Assembly (NCBI GenBank): GCA_943327025.2 | Contig: CALPVO020000040.1 | Coordinates: 1-12,142 of the forward strand | Direction of reading: 5' to 3' | DNA length: 12,142 nucleotides | Source of the DNA: Janthinobacterium lividum | GTDB taxonomy: Bacteria; Pseudomonadota; Gammaproteobacteria; Steroidobacterales; Steroidobacteraceae | In this document: piece by piece, positions 5,493 to 12,142 of the stretch | Layout of the letters: every line of letters begins with the position of its first letter | How positions within the stretch are numbered: the first letter of the stretch is position 1 | Program-made: the position numbers and the translations under genes | Notes under the pieces: generated by a model | Seen by the model: the letters and a program-made list of their open reading frames with translations, nothing else | The model's database searches: none | What the model was told of the DNA's origin: nothing

Positions 5493-6350
5493 TCAGCCGG
5501 CTTGAAAAAAAGCCACCACGGCCGCCACCGTAGCGGGGTCACGCAACAGATTGCGGTGCCCCAGGCCCCGGGTTTCGTGCAAGGTAGCGGCCGGCCAGGC
5601 CGCCGCCAGGCGTCGCCCTTGGTCCGGCGCAACAATCACATCGTCCACGCAATGCACAATCAACGCCGGCACCTGCGCCACCGGGGCCAGCGCAGCCAGC
5701 ACTTCGGGGTCCAGTTCGCGCATGGGTCGACCACCATGCTCGTCCATCAGGCGCCGCAATTCGTTACGGGCAGCGCCCCCGACACCTACCGCCTTGAGGA
5801 AGTTCTCGGTGATTTCCGACATGGCTGCCGGAGCCCCCAGCGTGGCCACGCGACGGGCCCGTAAACCGTGAGCCAACGCGATGGGCACAGCACCGCCCCC
5901 CAAGGAATGCCCTACCACCGCGTCCGGGGCACCAAACTCGGCCTGCGCGGCCAGCAAGGCCTGGGCGAACAACCAAGGGCTGGCCTGCTTGCCGGGGGAA
6001 CGCCCATGCCCGGGGCCTTCAATGGCGAGGACACGGTAGCCCTGCGCCACCAGCGCCCCAGCCAGCGGACGAAACTGTGTGGGCCGACCCTCCCAACCGT
6101 GCTGAGCGAATACCCACGGTGCCCGTGTAGCAGCCAGCGGTTCCCAGCACAGCGCGGCCAGGCCGTTGGCCAAGGTCAACTCACGCGCGGAGGGTTCGTC
6201 GCCCCGTAGCGGTTCAATCTCCCAGGCCTGTGGCGAGTTCTGACGCGGTCGCAGCACCCGGTGCCCCACCACGCGCGCCACCGCCTTCGGCGCCACCCGG
6301 CTGACCAGACCGAGGGTGGGCGGCACCCAACCCGGAACCTTGATGGTCAT
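5493..6350 (-). CDS. Alpha/beta hydrolase
   Basis: A 285-residue alpha/beta-hydrolase-fold protein with the expected landmarks. The oxyanion-hole strand ends F-A-Q-H-G-W-E-G (81-88), followed by V-L-A-I-E-G-P-G-H-G-R-S (107-118). The nucleophile elbow is G-H-S-L-G-G (147-152, Ser149). The acidic residue is Asp236 or Asp237 in V-H-C-V-D-D-V-I-V, and the catalytic His is His265 in G-L-G-H-R-N-L-L. There is no signal peptide and no lid domain large enough to suggest a lipase, so a cytosolic esterase or C-C/amide hydrolase of unknown substrate is likely. The ATG overlaps the TGA of the upstream permease (ATGA, 6347-6350), so the two are translated as a coupled pair. Followed by a strong terminator. 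Confidence 0.88.
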   Translation of the reverse strand: MTIKVPGWVPPTLGLVSRVAPKAVARVVGHRVLRPRQNSPQAWEIEPLRGDEPSARELTLANGLAALCWEPLAATRAPWVFAQHGWEGRPTQFRPLAGALVAQGYRVLAIEGPGHGRSPGKQASPWLFAQALLAAQAEFGAPDAVVGHSLGGGAVPIALAHGLRARRVATLGAPAAMSEITENFLKAVGVGGAARNELRRLMDEHGGRPMRELDPEVLAALAPVAQVPALIVHCVDDVIVAPDQGRRLAAAWPAATLHETRGLGHRNLLRDPATVAAVVAFFQAG

Positions 6351-7414
6351 GGGGCAGAGCCCGTCTCACCTTGCTCCTCGAGCCACTCGCGCCACACCGC
6401 CAGCGCTACCGCAAGCACCACCGGCCCCAGAAACAGACCAATGAGGCCGAAGGCGGCCACACCGCCCAGTACACCGAACATGACCAGCAAGAAAGGAATA
6501 CGCGTAGCGCTGGAAATGACGAGCGGCCGCACGAGGTTATCCACCCAACTGACGACCAGCGCTCCCCAGAGGAACAGGGCCAGCCCCTTCCCGGTCTCAC
6601 CGGTCAGCACCAGCCACAAGGCCAGCGAACCCCAGACGAACGGCGTACCAAAGGGAATAAGCGCAATGAGCACCGTGAGTGCGCCGAGCAACAGCGGCGC
6701 CTTGAAACCCACGGCGGCGTAGCCGATACCCGCCATGACGCCTTGCGCGAGCGCCGTCAGCACCAAGCCATAAACCACCGCTCGGGTGGTGGCGCCAATG
6801 GCTTCCACATAGCCCTCCACGCGCGCACCCAACAGACCACCCGCGGCCAAGCGCACTTGACGCAGCAGGTCCTCGCCCGACAGATACAGGAAAAACAGCG
6901 CCAACACGGCGAAACCCATTTTGGCAAGGTTGCGACCGACGCCGCCCATCACCCCACCCATTTCGCCAAACAGGCGCGTGGCCATTTCCGACAGGGCGGC
7001 GCCAAGGGCGTTGGGGTCGCGCCTTACTTCGTCCAGCAGCTCGTGCAGGCGCGGACCCACCACCGGCCAACGGGAAACGCCCTCGGGCAAGGTGAGTTGG
7101 CCCTTTGCCGCGCGCGCCACGAACTCCTGCCAAGCACCACCTAACTCGCGCTGCATCGTCAGCGCCAGCCAAATGAGCGGACCGATGACGGCAGCGGCGA
7201 TAAAGAGGGTCATGAACGTGGCGGCCAGATGCCGGCTGCGAAGCAGGCGCTCCAATCGCAAAAACAACGGCCAGCTGACATAGGCGAAAATGGCCGCCCA
7301 AAGTACCGGCACCACGAATGGCGCGAGCACCAGCCACGCCAGCAACACCAGACCGCCCAACAGGGCACCCAAAATGAGGCGACGCAGCAACGGGGATGTC
7401 AGGGGATCGAGCAT
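6347..7414 (-). CDS. AI-2E family transporter (YdiK/PerM type permease)
   Basis: A 355-residue polytopic membrane protein. Hydrophobic segments lie near 13-31, 34-52, 63-85, 164-180, 211-235, 240-256, 259-271, 276-291 and 306-340, with a soluble loop around 90-160, the usual AI-2E family layout. Recognisable signatures are L-I-P-F-G-T-P-F-V-W (252-261) and W-V-D-N-L-V-R-P-L-V-I (290-300). The family is named after E. coli TqsA, reported to export autoinducer-2, but many members carry out other exchanges, so the substrate is not assigned. AGG lies 5 nt before the ATG at 7414. It is the first gene of a pair with the alpha/beta hydrolase and diverges from the H-NOX gene across 116 bp. Confidence 0.9.
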   Translation of the reverse strand: MLDPLTSPLLRRLILGALLGGLVLLAWLVLAPFVVPVLWAAIFAYVSWPLFLRLERLLRSRHLAATFMTLFIAAAVIGPLIWLALTMQRELGGAWQEFVARAAKGQLTLPEGVSRWPVVGPRLHELLDEVRRDPNALGAALSEMATRLFGEMGGVMGGVGRNLAKMGFAVLALFFLYLSGEDLLRQVRLAAGGLLGARVEGYVEAIGATTRAVVYGLVLTALAQGVMAGIGYAAVGFKAPLLLGALTVLIALIPFGTPFVWGSLALWLVLTGETGKGLALFLWGALVVSWVDNLVRPLVISSATRIPFLLVMFGVLGGVAAFGLIGLFLGPVVLAVALAVWREWLEEQGETGSAP

Positions 7415-7530
7415 GAAGGCCTGCCAGCAACACCGGGCGGCTACCCGGCAAGCGTGATGGTACCTTGTGCAGCATGACGATTCTGTTCCAGAGTCGCCGA
7501 AACTGCTGCAAAGTCGATTGAGGTCACTGC
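7415..7530. promoter_or_regulatory. Divergent spacer between the permease and H-NOX genes
   Basis: The 116-bp spacer must drive both the permease operon and the NO-sensor operon. A short inverted repeat CCGGG-N6-CCCGG lies near 7433-7454. I found no promoter with good -35 and -10 boxes on either strand, and no NsrR/NorR-type operator that I could recognise. The H-NOX ribosome binding site GAGG is at 7520-7523, 7 nt before the ATG. Confidence 0.35.
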
Positions 7531-8082
7531 ATGAAGGGCATGATATTCACCGAATTCCTGGAGATGGCGGAAAGCCGTCATTCAGCCGAATATGTCGATG
7601 CCGTCATTCAGGCGGCGGCGGTGCCGAACGACGGCGCCTATACGGCCGTGGGAACCTACCCTGCCGCCGAAATGGGCTGCCTGCTAAAGGCCTATTCGCA
7701 ACGCAGCGGCCTTGCCCCCTCGGCCATCCTGAAGTCGTTCGGAGAGCACCTTTACGGCCGCTTTCGTGAACAATACCCGGCGTTCTTCAGCACTGCACCA
7801 GAGCCGCTGGCGTTTCTGGAGAGCGTCGATGGCTATATCCACGTAGAAGTGCGCAAGCTCTACCCGGACGCGGAACTGCCCACCTTCCAATGCCATCGGC
7901 CAACTCCCGACAGCTTGGTCATGCTGTATCAGTCCAGCCGGGGTTTGGCGGACCTAGCGGAAGGGCTCATCCGCGCCTGTCTTGCCGGCGCCGGGGCCCC
8001 ACACCTACTGGAACGCGAGGACCTCTCGGGTGGTACGGGCACCATCGTTAGGTTTACTTTGCGGCCCCCTCTGCATGACTAG
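7531..8082 (+). CDS. H-NOX heme-nitric-oxide-binding sensor protein
   Basis: A 183-residue stand-alone H-NOX (HNOB) domain of standard length, starting M-K-G-M-I-F-T-E-F-L-E-M-A-E. The heme-ligand histidine is His104 in I-H-V-E-V-R-K-L-Y-P, the conserved heme-bending proline is Pro117 (E-L-P-T-F), and the Y-x-S-x-R heme-propionate motif is Tyr133-Ser135-Arg137. Nine residues after Tyr133, where O2-binding H-NOX proteins carry the distal Tyr140 (Thermoanaerobacter numbering), this one has Leu142. It should therefore bind NO and exclude O2. Its three cysteines (50, 121, 150) do not obviously form the zinc site described in some NO-responsive members. It acts in the cytosol and should inhibit or activate the kinase encoded by the overlapping next gene. 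Start supported by GAGG 7 nt upstream and by the family N-terminus. Confidence 0.93.
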   Translation: MKGMIFTEFLEMAESRHSAEYVDAVIQAAAVPNDGAYTAVGTYPAAEMGCLLKAYSQRSGLAPSAILKSFGEHLYGRFREQYPAFFSTAPEPLAFLESVDGYIHVEVRKLYPDAELPTFQCHRPTPDSLVMLYQSSRGLADLAEGLIRACLAGAGAPHLLEREDLSGGTGTIVRFTLRPPLHD

Positions 8083-10426
8083 TGAAGACGAGGCGCTTTG
8101 GGAACGGCGCCTCCACCGTGAACGGCAGGCAAGGAAGGCAGCCGAAGCCATACTGGAAGCCAAGAGCCGCGAGCTCTATCTGTCCAATGAAGCGCTTCGT
8201 AGCCTGACCGGTCGCCTCGAGGGCGAAGTGGTGGAGCGCACCCGCTCCTTGAGCCAAGCCAACACCGCCTTGCAACTCCTGCACACCACCAGTGAGGTGC
8301 TGGCGACTGCCGAGGACCCACTCAAGGCTGCAGAACAGGTGCTGTCGCAGTCCTGCACTTTGCAGGAATGGGATGGCGCCCACTACTGGCAACACCATCT
8401 GCCCACGGCAACCCTGCAATGTGCCGCGAGTTGGGCGATGAACCCCGCAGCCGATGCCTCCTGGCTGGCTGCGAGGAGCCTGGCAGACCTGCCAGCGGGC
8501 GAAGACCTGCCCGGCCGCGTGCTGTCCAGACCCGTTGCACTCCACTGGCAGGACACGGCCAACAGCGAGCACTACCCGCGGCTTGCCACTGCCGGCGTAC
8601 GCTGCGCGATTGCCGTACCGGTCATCGCCCATGGTCGTTGCGCGGGTGTGCTGGAGTTTTTATCGCGACACCGGCGCGTTGCAGATCGCTCGCTCGTCAA
8701 TACCCTCACGGAAGTCGGCGTCAAGCTGGGGTTGTTTCTGGAACGGCACGCTGCCGCGCAGGAACTGCGCCTCGCTAAAGAACAGGCCGATGCCGCCAAC
8801 CAAGCCAAGGGTCGATTTCTGGCCAACATGAGCCACGAGATCCGGACGCCCATGAACGGCATCATTGGCATGGCCGAACTGGCGCTGGACACGAACCTCG
8901 ACCGCGAACAGCGGGAATACCTCGAAATCGTGCTCAAGTCAGCCGAAGCGCTCTTGGTCATCCTCAATGACATTCTGGATTTCTCGAAGATTGACGCAGG
9001 CAAGCTGGAACTAGAGACGGTCGCTTTCACGCCCGTAACGTTGGCCGAAGAAGCACTGCGACCATTTCAGTTAAGAGCCAAACAGAAAGGCCTGCGCCTG
9101 CTGTTGAACACCGACCCCGGCATACCACCACAACTCCTCGGCGACCCGGGTCGCTTGCGGCAAGTCTTGCTGAACTTGCTGGGCAATGCGCTGAAGTTCA
9201 CGGAACGTGGCGAGGTACGGTTGCGAATTTCCATGGCACAAGCCACTCCCTTTCATCAGCGCCTGCAGTTCCAGGTCAGTGACACGGGCGCTGGCATACC
9301 ACTCGAGAAGCAAACGAGCATCTTCGAGGCGTTTCAGCAAGCGGATGCTTCGTTCACACGACTCCATGGCGGCACGGGGCTCGGCCTCTCCATTTGCCAG
9401 CGACTGGTGCGATTGATGGGCGGCGAACTGGCTGTGGAAAGCATCCCCGGCCAAGGCAGCACCTTTGCTTTTTCCGTGAATTTCGAGCTTCCGCCACAGA
9501 TTTCTGTGCCAGCGAAGGCCATGGCGCAGGACCCGGAACAGACCAAAGCACAGGCCGCGGCAACAAGAAGGCAACAACGCATGCGAATTCTGGTCGCCGA
9601 AGACAGCGAAGTGAATCAGGTGCTGGCGCTGGCGATGCTCGACAGTCTTGGCCACGAAGCGGTGGTTGCAGCGGACGGCGAAGCGGCCTTGCGCGCACTG
9701 GCCCGGGGCACCTTCGACGCCGTGCTGATGGATGTTCAGATGCCCGTCCTCAGCGGTCTGGAAGCGACCCGTCGGTTCCGTGAGACGGAGGCGGGTTCAG
9801 GCTCGCGCGTGCCTATCATTGCCATGACCGCCAACGCCATGCAGGGCGACCGAGAGGCGTGCCTGGAAGCAGGGATGGACGGTTACCTCGCCAAGCCCAT
9901 CCGGCGGCAACAACTCGCAGAAGCGCTGGACGCCGCAGCGGCAAAAACCTTTCCGCTGCCAGGCCCTTTGACTACCGGGATGGCGAGCGCATTGCCGTCA
10001 ATACCGGCTCTTCCGCTCGACACCACCGCAGGGACACCTACCGGCATCGACCTGGCAAAGGCGCTGGCGATGATGGACGGCAAAGCCCGCTATCTGGCGC
10101 GCATGGTGAAGGGTGGGCTTGACGCTTTGCCACGCGGCCTCGCCGAGGCACAACACCATCTGGCCGCCAGCGACTGGGGCGCCTTGGAGCACACAGCGCA
10201 CACCCTGAAGGGTTCGCTGGCAGCGCTGGTGGCCAAGCCCGCTGCGGGGAGCGCGCGCGCCTTGGAAGAGGCGGCGCGGCGCAATGAGCGCACTGCCGCT
10301 ACCACCGCTTTGGTGGCTCTGGAAACGCAAACGCGGGCATTGCTGCCCGCGTTGGAAGAAGCCTTGCGCCCCGGCGGGCTGGCTTGTGAAAGCCAACCCG
10401 GGGGGCCGACCGCGCCGGAGCGCTAG
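8075..10426 (+). CDS. H-NOX-associated hybrid histidine kinase (GAF-HisKA-HATPase-REC-Hpt)
   Basis: A 783-residue soluble kinase with no membrane segment. Order: charged N-terminal coiled coil (about 5-65), GAF domain (66-228, with L-P-G-R-V and A-I-A-V-P-V-I-A-H-G-R-C-A-G-V-L-E-F), HisKA with His254 in M-S-H-E-I-R-T-P-M-N-G, HATPase_c with N box Asn367/Asn371, D-T-G-A-G-I-P (403-409) and G-T-G-L-G-L (433-438), receiver domain (503-622) with Glu509/Asp510, phospho-acceptor Asp553, Thr585 and Lys607, a Pro/Thr-rich linker, and Hpt domain (655-765) with His709 in A-H-T-L-K-G-S. All catalytic and relay residues are intact. The ATG overlaps the last 8 nt of the H-NOX gene (ATGACTAG), with no clear ribosome binding site, so coupled translation is likely; the longer frame back to 7982 is inside the H-NOX gene. 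In known systems NO-bound H-NOX controls such a kinase. No response regulator lies nearby, so the output is encoded elsewhere. Confidence 0.93.
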   Translation: MTSEDEALWERRLHRERQARKAAEAILEAKSRELYLSNEALRSLTGRLEGEVVERTRSLSQANTALQLLHTTSEVLATAEDPLKAAEQVLSQSCTLQEWDGAHYWQHHLPTATLQCAASWAMNPAADASWLAARSLADLPAGEDLPGRVLSRPVALHWQDTANSEHYPRLATAGVRCAIAVPVIAHGRCAGVLEFLSRHRRVADRSLVNTLTEVGVKLGLFLERHAAAQELRLAKEQADAANQAKGRFLANMSHEIRTPMNGIIGMAELALDTNLDREQREYLEIVLKSAEALLVILNDILDFSKIDAGKLELETVAFTPVTLAEEALRPFQLRAKQKGLRLLLNTDPGIPPQLLGDPGRLRQVLLNLLGNALKFTERGEVRLRISMAQATPFHQRLQFQVSDTGAGIPLEKQTSIFEAFQQADASFTRLHGGTGLGLSICQRLVRLMGGELAVESIPGQGSTFAFSVNFELPPQISVPAKAMAQDPEQTKAQAAATRRQQRMRILVAEDSEVNQVLALAMLDSLGHEAVVAADGEAALRALARGTFDAVLMDVQMPVLSGLEATRRFRETEAGSGSRVPIIAMTANAMQGDREACLEAGMDGYLAKPIRRQQLAEALDAAAAKTFPLPGPLTTGMASALPSIPALPLDTTAGTPTGIDLAKALAMMDGKARYLARMVKGGLDALPRGLAEAQHHLAASDWGALEHTAHTLKGSLAALVAKPAAGSARALEEAARRNERTAATTALVALETQTRALLPALEEALRPGGLACESQPGGPTAPER

Positions 10427-10448: not shown

Positions 10449-10895
10449 TCACGTGCAGCCAGGATCGCCATCCTTGAAGGAGACGGTCAGCTCCGGCTGG
10501 CCTTCGGCAGGCATTTGAATGTCACGCTCGCAAATGGACGGACCGGATGCCAAGCGAACCTTGAACTCCCAGATGCCAGTCCCGAGCGGACGGGAAGACT
10601 GCGCCTCACCGGCACAAGCGACTTCGCCCTCCTTGACCTGCTTCATGTCGATTTCTGTGTAGAACATGGCCGTCGCCGACATGCTGCCCTGGCCGGGCGC
10701 AAGATTCTTGGGCGTCGCCTGCACCGACACGTGTTCGCACGCACCGTCCTGAGTGACGGAGTCGATCTTGAATTGGGCGTGGATGAGCTTGTCGTCGCCA
10801 CCCGAGCCGCCGCCACAAGCACCCAGCATGAGCGCAGCCGCCACAGCCGCCGTACCGAACACGGCCTTACGGGCCAGCGAAAGCGAAATCTGCAT
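10449..10895 (-). CDS. Small Cys-containing lipoprotein of unknown function
   Basis: A 148-residue predicted lipoprotein. The signal peptide has Arg9-Lys10, a hydrophobic A-V-F-G-T-A-A-V-A-A-A-L-M stretch and the lipobox L-G-A-C with lipidated Cys27, followed by a flexible G-G-G-S-G-G linker. The mature part has four further cysteines, in G-A-C-E, V-A-C-A, S-I-C-E and the C-terminal P-G-C-T, enough for two disulfides, and looks mainly beta-stranded. I do not recognise the family. There is no Asp at position +2 of the lipobox, so outer-membrane sorting is likely if Lol rules apply. The start at 10895 is set by AGGGGGA 6 nt upstream and the signal peptide; the frame is open to 11150 without support. 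It converges with the kinase gene 22 bp away. Confidence 0.85.
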   Translation of the reverse strand: MQISLSLARKAVFGTAAVAAALMLGACGGGSGGDDKLIHAQFKIDSVTQDGACEHVSVQATPKNLAPGQGSMSATAMFYTEIDMKQVKEGEVACAGEAQSSRPLGTGIWEFKVRLASGPSICERDIQMPAEGQPELTVSFKDGDPGCT

Positions 10896-11180: not shown

Positions 11181-11777
11181 TCACTTCCAAGGGGTTTCCA
11201 ATTCCCACAGCAACGGTGCGTAACTGCGCAAGGCATAAACACCAAAGCCCAGATGCCGAAAATGCCGGCGCAAGCGTCGCTCGTACCAATCACGCGGACG
11301 CAAGTGGACCCCACGATCTGTACGCGAGGTATCCGCGTTGTTTTTCCAGTCCCCGGCGGTGAGCACGCTGAAATACAGCAAGCCGCGCGACAGTTGCGCC
11401 AGCGAAGTAATGGCCCGCGCCGCTTCGCGGTCGGGCAGGTATTGCAGCACGTCGTGGCAGACCACGAGATCGAAGCCCTTGGTGTCGGTATAGCCCGGAA
11501 GGCTGCCTTGCACCCAGCCATACTTGCGGCACAAATACTCGCTAACCTCGAGCCCCACGTATTCCGCGCCCTTGAACTGCCGCCGCAACGGCGTGCGCAA
11601 CCAGCCCACGCCGCAACCGGCGTCTAGCAGGCGCTTCACGCGGAAGCCACAGTAGTGCGCCACGCCACCGATAAGCGCTGCGAGCCGCGCCTGATCCTCC
11701 CGCGTGGCCACGCGCGTGGCCGGATTGGCGTAATAGCGCTTGAAGAAAGCAGCATCGAAACGGTCATTGGCGATCAT
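11181..11777 (-). CDS. Class I SAM-dependent methyltransferase
   Basis: A 198-residue protein with the Rossmann-type methyltransferase motifs. Motif I is R-L-L-D-A-G-C-G-V-G-W-L-R (49-61). Motif II acidic residue is in Y-V-G-L-E-V-S-E (73-80), and the post-motif F-D-L-V-V-C-H-D-V-L-Q-Y-L-P is at 102-115, followed by G-L-L-Y-F-S-V (132-138). An N-terminal helical stretch with F-F-K-R-Y-Y (11-16) precedes the fold. Soluble; the substrate is unknown. The start at 11777 (MIANDRF) is preferred: it begins where the conserved part begins and leaves room for a promoter. An in-frame ATG at 11828 would add 17 residues and leave only 14 bp to the divergent gene, with no ribosome binding site. Even at 11777 the site is weak (AGG about 9 nt upstream). 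Confidence 0.85.
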   Translation of the reverse strand: MIANDRFDAAFFKRYYANPATRVATREDQARLAALIGGVAHYCGFRVKRLLDAGCGVGWLRTPLRRQFKGAEYVGLEVSEYLCRKYGWVQGSLPGYTDTKGFDLVVCHDVLQYLPDREAARAITSLAQLSRGLLYFSVLTAGDWKNNADTSRTDRGVHLRPRDWYERRLRRHFRHLGFGVYALRSYAPLLWELETPWK

Positions 11778-11842
11778 GCGGTGGGGCCTGCTCTGCGTTC
11801 CGGGCAACACTGCCTTCGGGGCCGCCATGCTAACGTGGTGCC

Positions 11843-12142
11843 ATGAAGCTGCGCACTGGTTCGTTACTGATTCCTTTGCTGCTAGGCACTCTGGCACTGG
11901 CGGCGGTGGCCAACGCGTCCCCGCGCGACAATCCGCCGGACATTCCGCTGGACATGCCACCGGACATGCCACCGGACAGGCCACCCGCTCCGGCCGCAGT
12001 GCCTGCGTCAGTCACGGCGCCACCTGCGATGCCGGCACCCTCAAGCGGCAGCACAGTCGTAGAAGACGTGGTCAGTGGCCCCTTCAAAGATCTGAACTTG
12101 GTGAAGAAGGACATTCCACCCGTGTTGGTGGACTTGCATGGA
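11843..12142 (+). CDS. Secreted Pro/Asp-rich protein (5' part, runs off the window)
   Basis: An ATG at 11843 opens a frame with no stop to the window end: 100 codons, 3' end missing. A signal peptide is clear: Lys2 and Arg4, then L-L-I-P-L-L-L-G-T-L-A-L-A-A-V-A-N-A, likely cut after Ala25. The next part is low-complexity: P-P-D-x repeats (31-46), then an Ala/Pro/Ser-rich stretch to about 73. A more ordered segment begins V-V-E-D-V-V-S-G-P-F-K-D-L-N-L-V-K-K-D-I-P-P-V-L (74-97, split here only by hyphens). I do not recognise the family with certainty; similar export signal plus Pro-rich linker proteins are common in Xanthomonadaceae. The ribosome binding site (GGTG, 2-5 nt upstream) is poor. 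It diverges from the methyltransferase gene. Confidence 0.75.
   Translation, partial: MKLRTGSLLIPLLLGTLALAAVANASPRDNPPDIPLDMPPDMPPDRPPAPAAVPASVTAPPAMPAPSSGSTVVEDVVSGPFKDLNLVKKDIPPVLVDLHG
11933..11980 (+). repeat. Four 12-bp tandem repeats encoding Pro-Pro-Asp-x
   Basis: Four in-frame 12-bp units read PPDI, PLDM, PPDM and PPDR. Units 2 and 3 are nearly identical in DNA (CCACCGGACATG in unit 3, one base of the second codon pair and one third position changed in unit 2), and unit 4 differs from unit 3 at one base. A partial fifth unit, Pro-Pro, follows. The repeats lie just after the signal peptide of the secreted protein and keep the frame in whole-codon steps, so copy number could vary without a frameshift. 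Confidence 0.8.

Follow-up and report, generated by a model that had tools for sequence, protein, structure and literature searches.

A hybrid kinase with a built-in Hpt domain beside an H-NOX gene, and a related Hpt standing alone at the same site in a sister species

Several kinases controlled by H-NOX, a family of haem proteins that sense nitric oxide (NO), have been described. HqsK of Vibrio harveyi and V. parahaemolyticus, which works with H-NOX, passes phosphate to the separate histidine phosphotransfer (Hpt) protein LuxU (PMC6759604, PMC6769237). HahK of Vibrio fischeri is encoded in an hnoX-hahK operon, needs its receiver residue Asp506 and sends its output through the Hpt domain of SypF or through LuxU, and the SypF Hpt domain alone restores function in this pathway (PMC12369376). 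Here we analyse an H-NOX gene and the hybrid kinase gene overlapping it in a stretch of 12,142 bases, hereafter the window, which is the entire contig CALPVO020000040.1 (contig C40 of genome G000) of a freshwater Steroidobacteraceae metagenome-assembled genome (GenBank assembly GCA_943327025.2, Janthinobacterium lividum; 2.38 Mb in 351 contigs, rated 75% complete). The kinase carries its own Hpt domain, and at the same site in a sister species an Hpt gene stands alone. Four genomes of the genus were compared: G000, G115, G116 (rated 96% complete) and G117, the most distant.

Like HqsK, the window kinase appears to be an H-NOX-regulated cytosolic hybrid kinase whose target is not encoded alongside it; unlike HqsK, which relies on the separate protein LuxU, it holds the Hpt within its own chain and so does not fall into the HqsK-LuxU type. 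The HahK operon likewise does not encode its target, but HahK borrows the Hpts of other proteins, whereas the Hpt is built in here and remains in G116. In the HnoK-HnoB-HnoD system of Shewanella oneidensis, H-NOX also controls a kinase, yet HnoK hands phosphate to the regulator HnoB and has no single-chain relay (PMC8846402). The preliminary description of the locus had set it apart from the Vibrio and Shewanella systems; the contrast holds for the built-in Hpt, but the partners of HqsK and HahK are outside the operon too. In its HisKA-HATPase-REC-Hpt order and its His-Asp-His relay the kinase resembles BarA, ArcB, TorS and EvgS (PMC4734776, PMC4494823). It differs from these four in that sensing would be by H-NOX in trans together with a GAF domain, and none among the 25 NCBIfam rows listed reaches its equivalog cut-off (TorS 405.5 versus 676.5; BarA 405.3 versus 890). 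The HptB hub of Pseudomonas aeruginosa is similar in that an NO-linked hybrid kinase, NahK with the sensor NosP, feeds an Hpt, although HptB is a separate gene and NosP belongs to another sensor family (PMC11784011). In Yersinia pestis a larger relay protein yields a small active Hpt-only protein, RcsD-Hpt, which arises by a frameshift and an internal start, whereas G116 lacks the remainder of the gene as well as the NO sensor (PMC10191623). H-NOX kinases with distant partners and relay proteins reduced to an active Hpt are thus already known; we found no published description either of an H-NOX kinase with a built-in Hpt or of a site that has lost sensor and kinase and kept the Hpt, in a search that left most subscription papers outside.

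On balance we favour, with reservations, a reading in which NO gates the kinase through H-NOX, the Hpt domain passes phosphate to a core regulator whose gene lies elsewhere, and the Hpt is able to work in the absence of the NO sensor. We regard the solo Hpt, which the window sequence by itself could not have revealed, as the most telling clue. What is read from sequence is the anatomy of the pair, the fact that three species have no regulator gene close by, the occurrence of a solo Hpt at this site and the relatives of that Hpt in public data, and it is the effect of NO, the direction of flow, the function of the solo Hpt and the identity of the target that we infer.

The H-NOX gene and the tripartite kinase

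The H-NOX gene (positions 7531..8082, plus strand) encodes 183 residues and is recognized by Pfam HNOB (119.1 bits; curated cut-off 25.5) and by its conserved residues. His104, which we take to be the haem ligand, and Tyr133, Ser135 and Arg137, presumably in the usual roles of the Y-x-S-x-R motif, are invariant across an alignment of 30 rows (A1); relatives in the PDB are 6bde, 6ocv and 4u99. O2-binding H-NOX proteins are marked by a distal-pocket tyrosine, Tyr140 in the Thermoanaerobacter protein; the residue five past Arg137 in the window protein is Leu142, a position reached by counting and not by alignment to the Thermoanaerobacter protein. G000 has a second H-NOX gene elsewhere (contig C36, locus L042, 5398-8066; 146.8 bits), which adjoins a gene for an HNOBA-domain kinase and has a divergent receiver-only open reading frame (ORF) beside it. 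This second gene also occurs in G115 (contig C253) and G116 (contig C141), and in G117 a PF07700 search turned up the first H-NOX alone and not the second paralogue.

The kinase gene (8075..10426, plus strand; 783 residues) begins with the ATG at 8075 (MTSEDEA), giving an 8-nt overlap with the H-NOX gene (8075-8082), and by this position, kept in G115 and G117, the kinase is H-NOX-associated. Along the chain, and all on the plus strand, Pfam places a GAF domain (residues 92-213, 8348..8713; PF01590, 27.8 bits, cut-off 22.4), a HisKA domain (residues 244-309, 8804..9001; 83.2 bits) with the phospho-acceptor His254 at 8834-8836, a HATPase_c domain (residues 356-470, 9140..9484; 100.9 bits), a receiver (Response_reg, residues 505-618, 9587..9928; 85.4 bits, with the same position in a second, separate search) with Asp553 at 9731-9733, and an Hpt domain (residues 683-761, 10121..10357; 33.2 bits, cut-off 24.6) with His709 at 10199-10201. 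Residues 254, 553 and 709 are H, D and H, and HisKA, HATPase, REC and Hpt thus stand in a single chain with a His-Asp-His series, as in tripartite kinases. The overlap and the three residues in one chain had been noted in the preliminary description, and the ORFs, Pfam and the residue check agree on both. The solved sequence nearest to the Hpt domain is that of HptB (7c1i, E 1.7e-5).

Kinases encoded directly downstream of H-NOX have a common N-terminal stretch like RERxARKxAExLLExKSxELY, which in the window kinase reads RERQARKAAEAILEAKSREL (residues 15-34; 8117..8176, plus strand). A strict pattern for this stretch, written after viewing a few examples, matched 46 of 71 H-NOX-adjacent kinases, and a relaxed pattern, tuned afterwards on the misses, matched 63 of the 71; neither is a published criterion, and neither matched any of 32 control kinases not beside H-NOX, 16 from the same loci and 16 from G000. 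We regard residues 15-34 as a probable H-NOX docking helix, for which one literature search listed no paper.

In the mechanism we propose, NO would bind the H-NOX protein, which would dock on this putative helix of the overlapping kinase and change its autophosphorylation; in the systems studied so far, NO-bound H-NOX inhibits the kinase. Phosphate would pass from His254 to Asp553 and on to His709 within the chain, and the Hpt domain would hand it to a core response regulator encoded elsewhere. The Hpt domain would be the exit of the relay and could still serve the network if the NO sensor were gone.

Absence of a local regulator gene, and H-NOX loci elsewhere

The pair lies between a divergent gene for an AI-2E-family transporter (6347..7414, minus strand; Pfam 136.8 bits) and a convergent gene for a lipoprotein-like protein (10449..10895, minus strand; no Pfam match; start Met before QISLSLARKAVFG by hand count), each of which is the neighbour in G115, G116 and G117 as well. 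As the preliminary description had it, neither side holds an output or response regulator gene: Pfam found no receiver, GGDEF, EAL or DNA-binding domain in the ten other window ORFs scanned (the remaining short ORFs being left out), and our own profiles for receiver, histidine kinase, Hpt, GGDEF and EAL domains, run on the stop-to-stop ORFs of at least 60 residues, found only the H-NOX-linked pair. Because the window is the whole contig of a 75%-complete genome, it cannot by itself show regions beyond its ends; what surrounds the pair there is shown by the sister loci of G115 (L039, 19.4 kb) and G117 (L040, 19.9 kb). Both retain the pair between the same flanks, and no further receiver protein was found in either. 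On the 146-kb pair-bearing contig of G117 the sole other receiver match is about 65 kb away, and a search of the window, L039 and L040 found no regulator gene of the HnoK-HnoB kind. The pair thus has no local regulator gene in any of these three species, and its target is therefore encoded elsewhere. The window also holds genes for an alpha/beta hydrolase (5493-6350, minus strand), overlapping the transporter gene, and a methyltransferase (11181-11984, minus strand). Horizontal import of the pair found no support: its G+C content is 62.9%, against 63.5% for the window.

A distant target, which the preliminary description had presented as the open question of this locus, is not special to it. 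We surveyed the best 80 of 579 confirmed H-NOX loci (named genome collection), in which a kinase adjoins H-NOX in 71, a GGDEF/EAL protein in 6 and neither in 3 (own profiles; for the kinases, Pfam was applied to 9 of the 71, and the other 62 were judged by our own profile). Sufficient flank on either side is available for 43 of the kinase loci, of which 26 have a separate receiver protein near and 17 have none; H-NOX kinases that lack a separate regulator nearby are common.

An Hpt domain inside the kinase is uncommon but recurrent, and it occurs in other phyla too (L075, L092, L097). Our own profile found one in 7 of the 80 loci and the Pfam cut-off in 5, those confirmed being in two sister species, L075, L092 and L097; at L087, at a contig end, the score is just short (23.1 versus 24.6), and at L125 the match to our own profile was not confirmed by Pfam. 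The neighbourhoods of homologous pairs, whose comparison the preliminary description had proposed, hold no regulator in G115 or G117. The preliminary description had named a response regulator gene beside a conserved version of the locus as a refutation, and such a case appears only outside the genus: a LytTR response regulator gene directly follows the tripartite H-NOX kinase gene of Saprospiraceae L075, a pair that is not orthologous to that of the window. A local regulator class common to the relatives with a built-in Hpt was rejected, since LytTR (L075), HD-GYP (L092) and NtrC-type (L125) differ; the HD-GYP regulator of L092 stands beside a second tripartite kinase.

Separate Hpt genes, confirmed by Pfam, occur in two Thiothrix loci (L049, L059) and four of Akkermansiaceae type (L070, L099, L120, L122). 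In Thiothrix (L049 8230-11895; L059 8296-11919) the Hpt gene lies directly upstream of H-NOX and an HK-REC kinase, with a divergent REC-SpoIIE gene, possibly a complete pathway from NO to a partner switch in one locus. In the Akkermansiaceae loci an Hpt gene and a receiver protein gene lie upstream of H-NOX, the receiver protein of L070, the only one of the four scanned, being NtrC-type. In Massilia (L051, L052, L057) our own profiles place proteins bearing GGDEF, EAL and receiver domains on both sides of H-NOX.

A solo Hpt gene at the site in G116

In G116, the window stretch 7483..10042 (approximate limits) has no counterpart at the same site by blastn and tblastn against the G116 copy (L267), which aligns with the window on both sides. 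What is missing is H-NOX, GAF, kinase and receiver; between the transporter and lipoprotein genes lies an intact ORF of 159 codons (L267 8133-7654, minus strand) that matches kinase residues 652 to 782 at 64% (tblastn) and keeps the histidine as AHQLKG. This solo Hpt, on G116 contig C7, scores 40.3 bits with PF01627, and its phospho-acceptor histidine is present in alignment A2. The H-NOX of the window has no match in G116, where a PF07700 search finds one H-NOX, the other paralogue. The solo ORF starts with ATGACG, in a part of the site that corresponds to the sequence upstream of H-NOX, and the same six bases stand about 50 nt before the H-NOX start in the window and in G115. Because the pair occupies this site even in G117, the most distant of the four, the simplest history would be loss in the G116 line and not gain, an argument from synteny and not from a tree.

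With the solo Hpt as query, a search through some 5.8 billion proteins (in this as in our other protein database searches, the candidates scored were the 7993 to 7994 sharing most words) gave 18 matches. Eight clusters are Hpt-only with a leader resembling the G116 one (MTVS or MTDS; P0184-P0189, P0192, P0193), down to about 61-66% identity to the G116 solo. P0195 and P0196 are Hpt-only with other starts, P0190 and P0191 are truncated at the N terminus (P0191 repeats P0184), P0194 and P0197 carry receiver pieces, and P0200 and P0201 are distant. P0198 and P0199 join window-like Hpt pieces to unrelated N termini, one of them RecR-like, and are probably assembly chimaeras. Across the 217 genomes of the family that were compared, relatives of at least 58% identity are confined to the four of this genus; the other 58 genomes with a match have different, distant Hpts, at 39% or less in the rows listed.

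The solos have kept the features of an Hpt. Of 44 columns invariant in eight kinase-borne Hpts, the nine solos (that of G116 plus the eight clusters) keep 39 as they are, and of 74 columns variable in the kinase Hpts 45 vary in the solos (Fisher 9e-8, ignoring relatedness). The residues round the histidine read TAH(T/A)(L/M)KGS in window-like kinases versus VAHQ(L/M)KGA in solos. An AlphaFold2 model of the solo P0184 is a helical bundle of five helices with core pLDDT above 90; its best Foldseek match is the Hpt domain 3myf (TM 0.85 by target, E 0.003), HptB 7c1i follows at E 0.018, and no Foldseek match passes E 0.001. The ratio of nonsynonymous to synonymous divergence (dN/dS) by NG86 is 0.36 for the G116 solo and the window (0.29/0.81), 0.32 for the window and G115 (0.047/0.148) and 0.36 for the window and G117 (0.48/1.32); the values being alike in solo and kinase-borne Hpts, nothing in them points to relaxation of the solo. 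The Hpt dS of 0.81 lies within the range of eight flank genes between G116 and the window (0.40-0.85), so that the Hpt is no odder than its flanks; a swap of two old alleles at the site finds no support for the same reason.

The G116 ORF may instead be debris, an open but drifting 3' end of the kinase gene left by the deletion. Such an end is expected from a single deletion, the identity of 63% between the G116 and window Hpts is below that of most flank proteins (76-98%, with the lipoprotein lower, at 59%), and YN00 puts dN/dS at about 0.7. Yet eight clusters with a like leader keep the frame, the histidine and 39 of the 44 columns, the dN/dS of the solo equals that of the kinase-borne Hpts by either method, and the G116 Hpt is no further from that of G117 (58% identity) than the window Hpt is (54%). 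We consider debris improbable.

Several points weigh against an NO-gated relay with a working solo Hpt. Both the gating and the solo's function are predictions made from sequence. At face value the YN00 ratio, which is about the same in all three Hpt comparisons, indicates weak constraint, and the strength of constraint on the solo depends on the method, NG86 or YN00. The eight clusters were seen as protein sequences, and databases list open frames, in which decayed copies of a solo Hpt would be missed. In an Hpt tree rooted on G117, some solos fall below kinases with weak support (76/68, 77/71), and the tree does not settle the direction, loss or gain; a single clade of all twelve solo rows is rejected (p 0.003), although one solo clade is not rejected when P0195 and P0196 are removed (p 0.48 and 0.38). 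That tree used 11 of the 18 solo matches (P0191, P0194, P0197, P0198, P0199, P0200 and P0201 left out) and 10 of the 11 kinase matches P0002-P0012 (P0008, with a garbled end, left out). Finally, a comparison of receiver proteins in the four genomes by receiver profile and reciprocal best hits (27 of G000, 28 of G115, 29 of G116 and 29 of G117) did not name the target; it left out the weakest receiver matches (3 of 33 in G117, 8 of 38 in G116), and G000 is incomplete.

Candidate targets of the relay

Among the receiver proteins so compared, the kinase itself is the one protein that all three pair-bearing genomes have and G116 lacks, and no regulator that co-occurs with the pair was found. No other compared receiver protein being confined to the pair-bearing species, the partner would be a core regulator, if it is among those compared. 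Three classes of candidate, a REC-SpoIIE protein, an OmpR-type regulator and cyclic di-GMP enzymes, carry about the same odds.

For the REC-SpoIIE protein, the relay would run as in the HptB-HsbR pathway of Pseudomonas, with NO acting via a phosphatase on an anti-sigma antagonist. Such a protein is encoded in each genome (G000 C49, G117 C10, G116 C23, G115 C203; the first three as orthologues, with Pfam run on the G000 and G117 copies), and in the two Thiothrix loci the REC-SpoIIE gene stands divergently beside an Hpt gene, H-NOX and an HK-REC kinase. HptB, moreover, is the solved protein nearest to the window Hpt, NahK, the partner of an NO sensor, passes phosphate to it (PMC11784011), and the HptB-HsbR-HsbA path has been described (PMC7647112). 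The G117 and G116 genes, however, lie in a cluster with a CheA-like kinase and CheB, which points to a local kinase, and the G115 protein, 37-38% identical to the others, is not clearly their orthologue. We rate this target as unlikely.

ArcB and TorS act on OmpR-type regulators, and an orphan regulator of this type (contig C72, L136 1202-1900) occurs in all four genomes. No kinase gene adjoins it, its neighbours in G000, G116 and G117 include a peptidyl-arginine-deiminase-like gene, and the other DNA-binding regulators of G000 that were checked adjoin a kinase (incompletely for those at contig ends). Its orphan status is the sole argument for it, and it has no link to H-NOX in any locus seen; its chances seem small. 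A GacA/UvrY partner, following the logic of BarA, was set aside: L164, the protein that comes nearest, reaches 122.6 where the cut-off is 280, and it adjoins a HisKA_3 kinase.

The third class is a cyclic di-GMP enzyme, either the REC-GGDEF-EAL protein of contig C197, present in all four genomes, or a REC-GGDEF protein present in three, which would be comparable to HnoB of Shewanella. H-NOX often acts on cyclic di-GMP (PMC8846402, PMC8738867), and the REC-GGDEF gene of G115 (contig C67, L256 8884-9861) has no kinase near. Against this, a hybrid kinase and an Hpt that look to be its own adjoin the C197 protein, and REC-GGDEF was not found in G000, an incomplete genome; we find this class as doubtful as the other two. 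The C197 locus (L135 574-5186) comprises a hybrid kinase with a Y_Y_Y domain, a separate Hpt and the REC-GGDEF-EAL protein, with orthologues in the three sisters. In G117 the REC-GGDEF orthologue lies in a cluster with another tripartite kinase and two LuxR-type regulators.

In G116, some other hybrid kinase, one that lacks an Hpt, could supply the solo Hpt with phosphate. The family of contig C98 is of this kind, a hybrid kinase with neither an Hpt domain nor an adjoining Hpt gene; each of the four genomes has a member (that of G116 being 113 residues long where a contig ends), and it is a likely donor. More tentatively, and as a suggestion that may well be wrong, the Hpt may be a hub of the genus whose NO input is removable, so that lineages such as G116 would lose sensor, kinase and receiver in a single event while the Hpt stayed on under the former upstream region. 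The shifted residues round its histidine would then suit docking of a receiver in trans, and C98, the one hybrid kinase lacking an Hpt that the four genomes share, would be its likely donor.

How a hybrid kinase with no partner nearby reaches its regulator is an open problem, and NO-sensing wiring outside Vibrio, Shewanella, Legionella and Pseudomonas is little known. At this one site the four close species lend themselves to a natural comparison, with sensor, kinase and Hpt all present in three of them and the Hpt alone in the fourth. If the solo Hpt is active, two small domains set against a few core receivers could reveal the target of an orphan NO pathway. In that case the part kept at this site would be the exit of the relay and not its sensor. 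That a sister species without sensor and kinase has the Hpt domain as a gene of its own suggests that this domain is linked into a broader signalling network.

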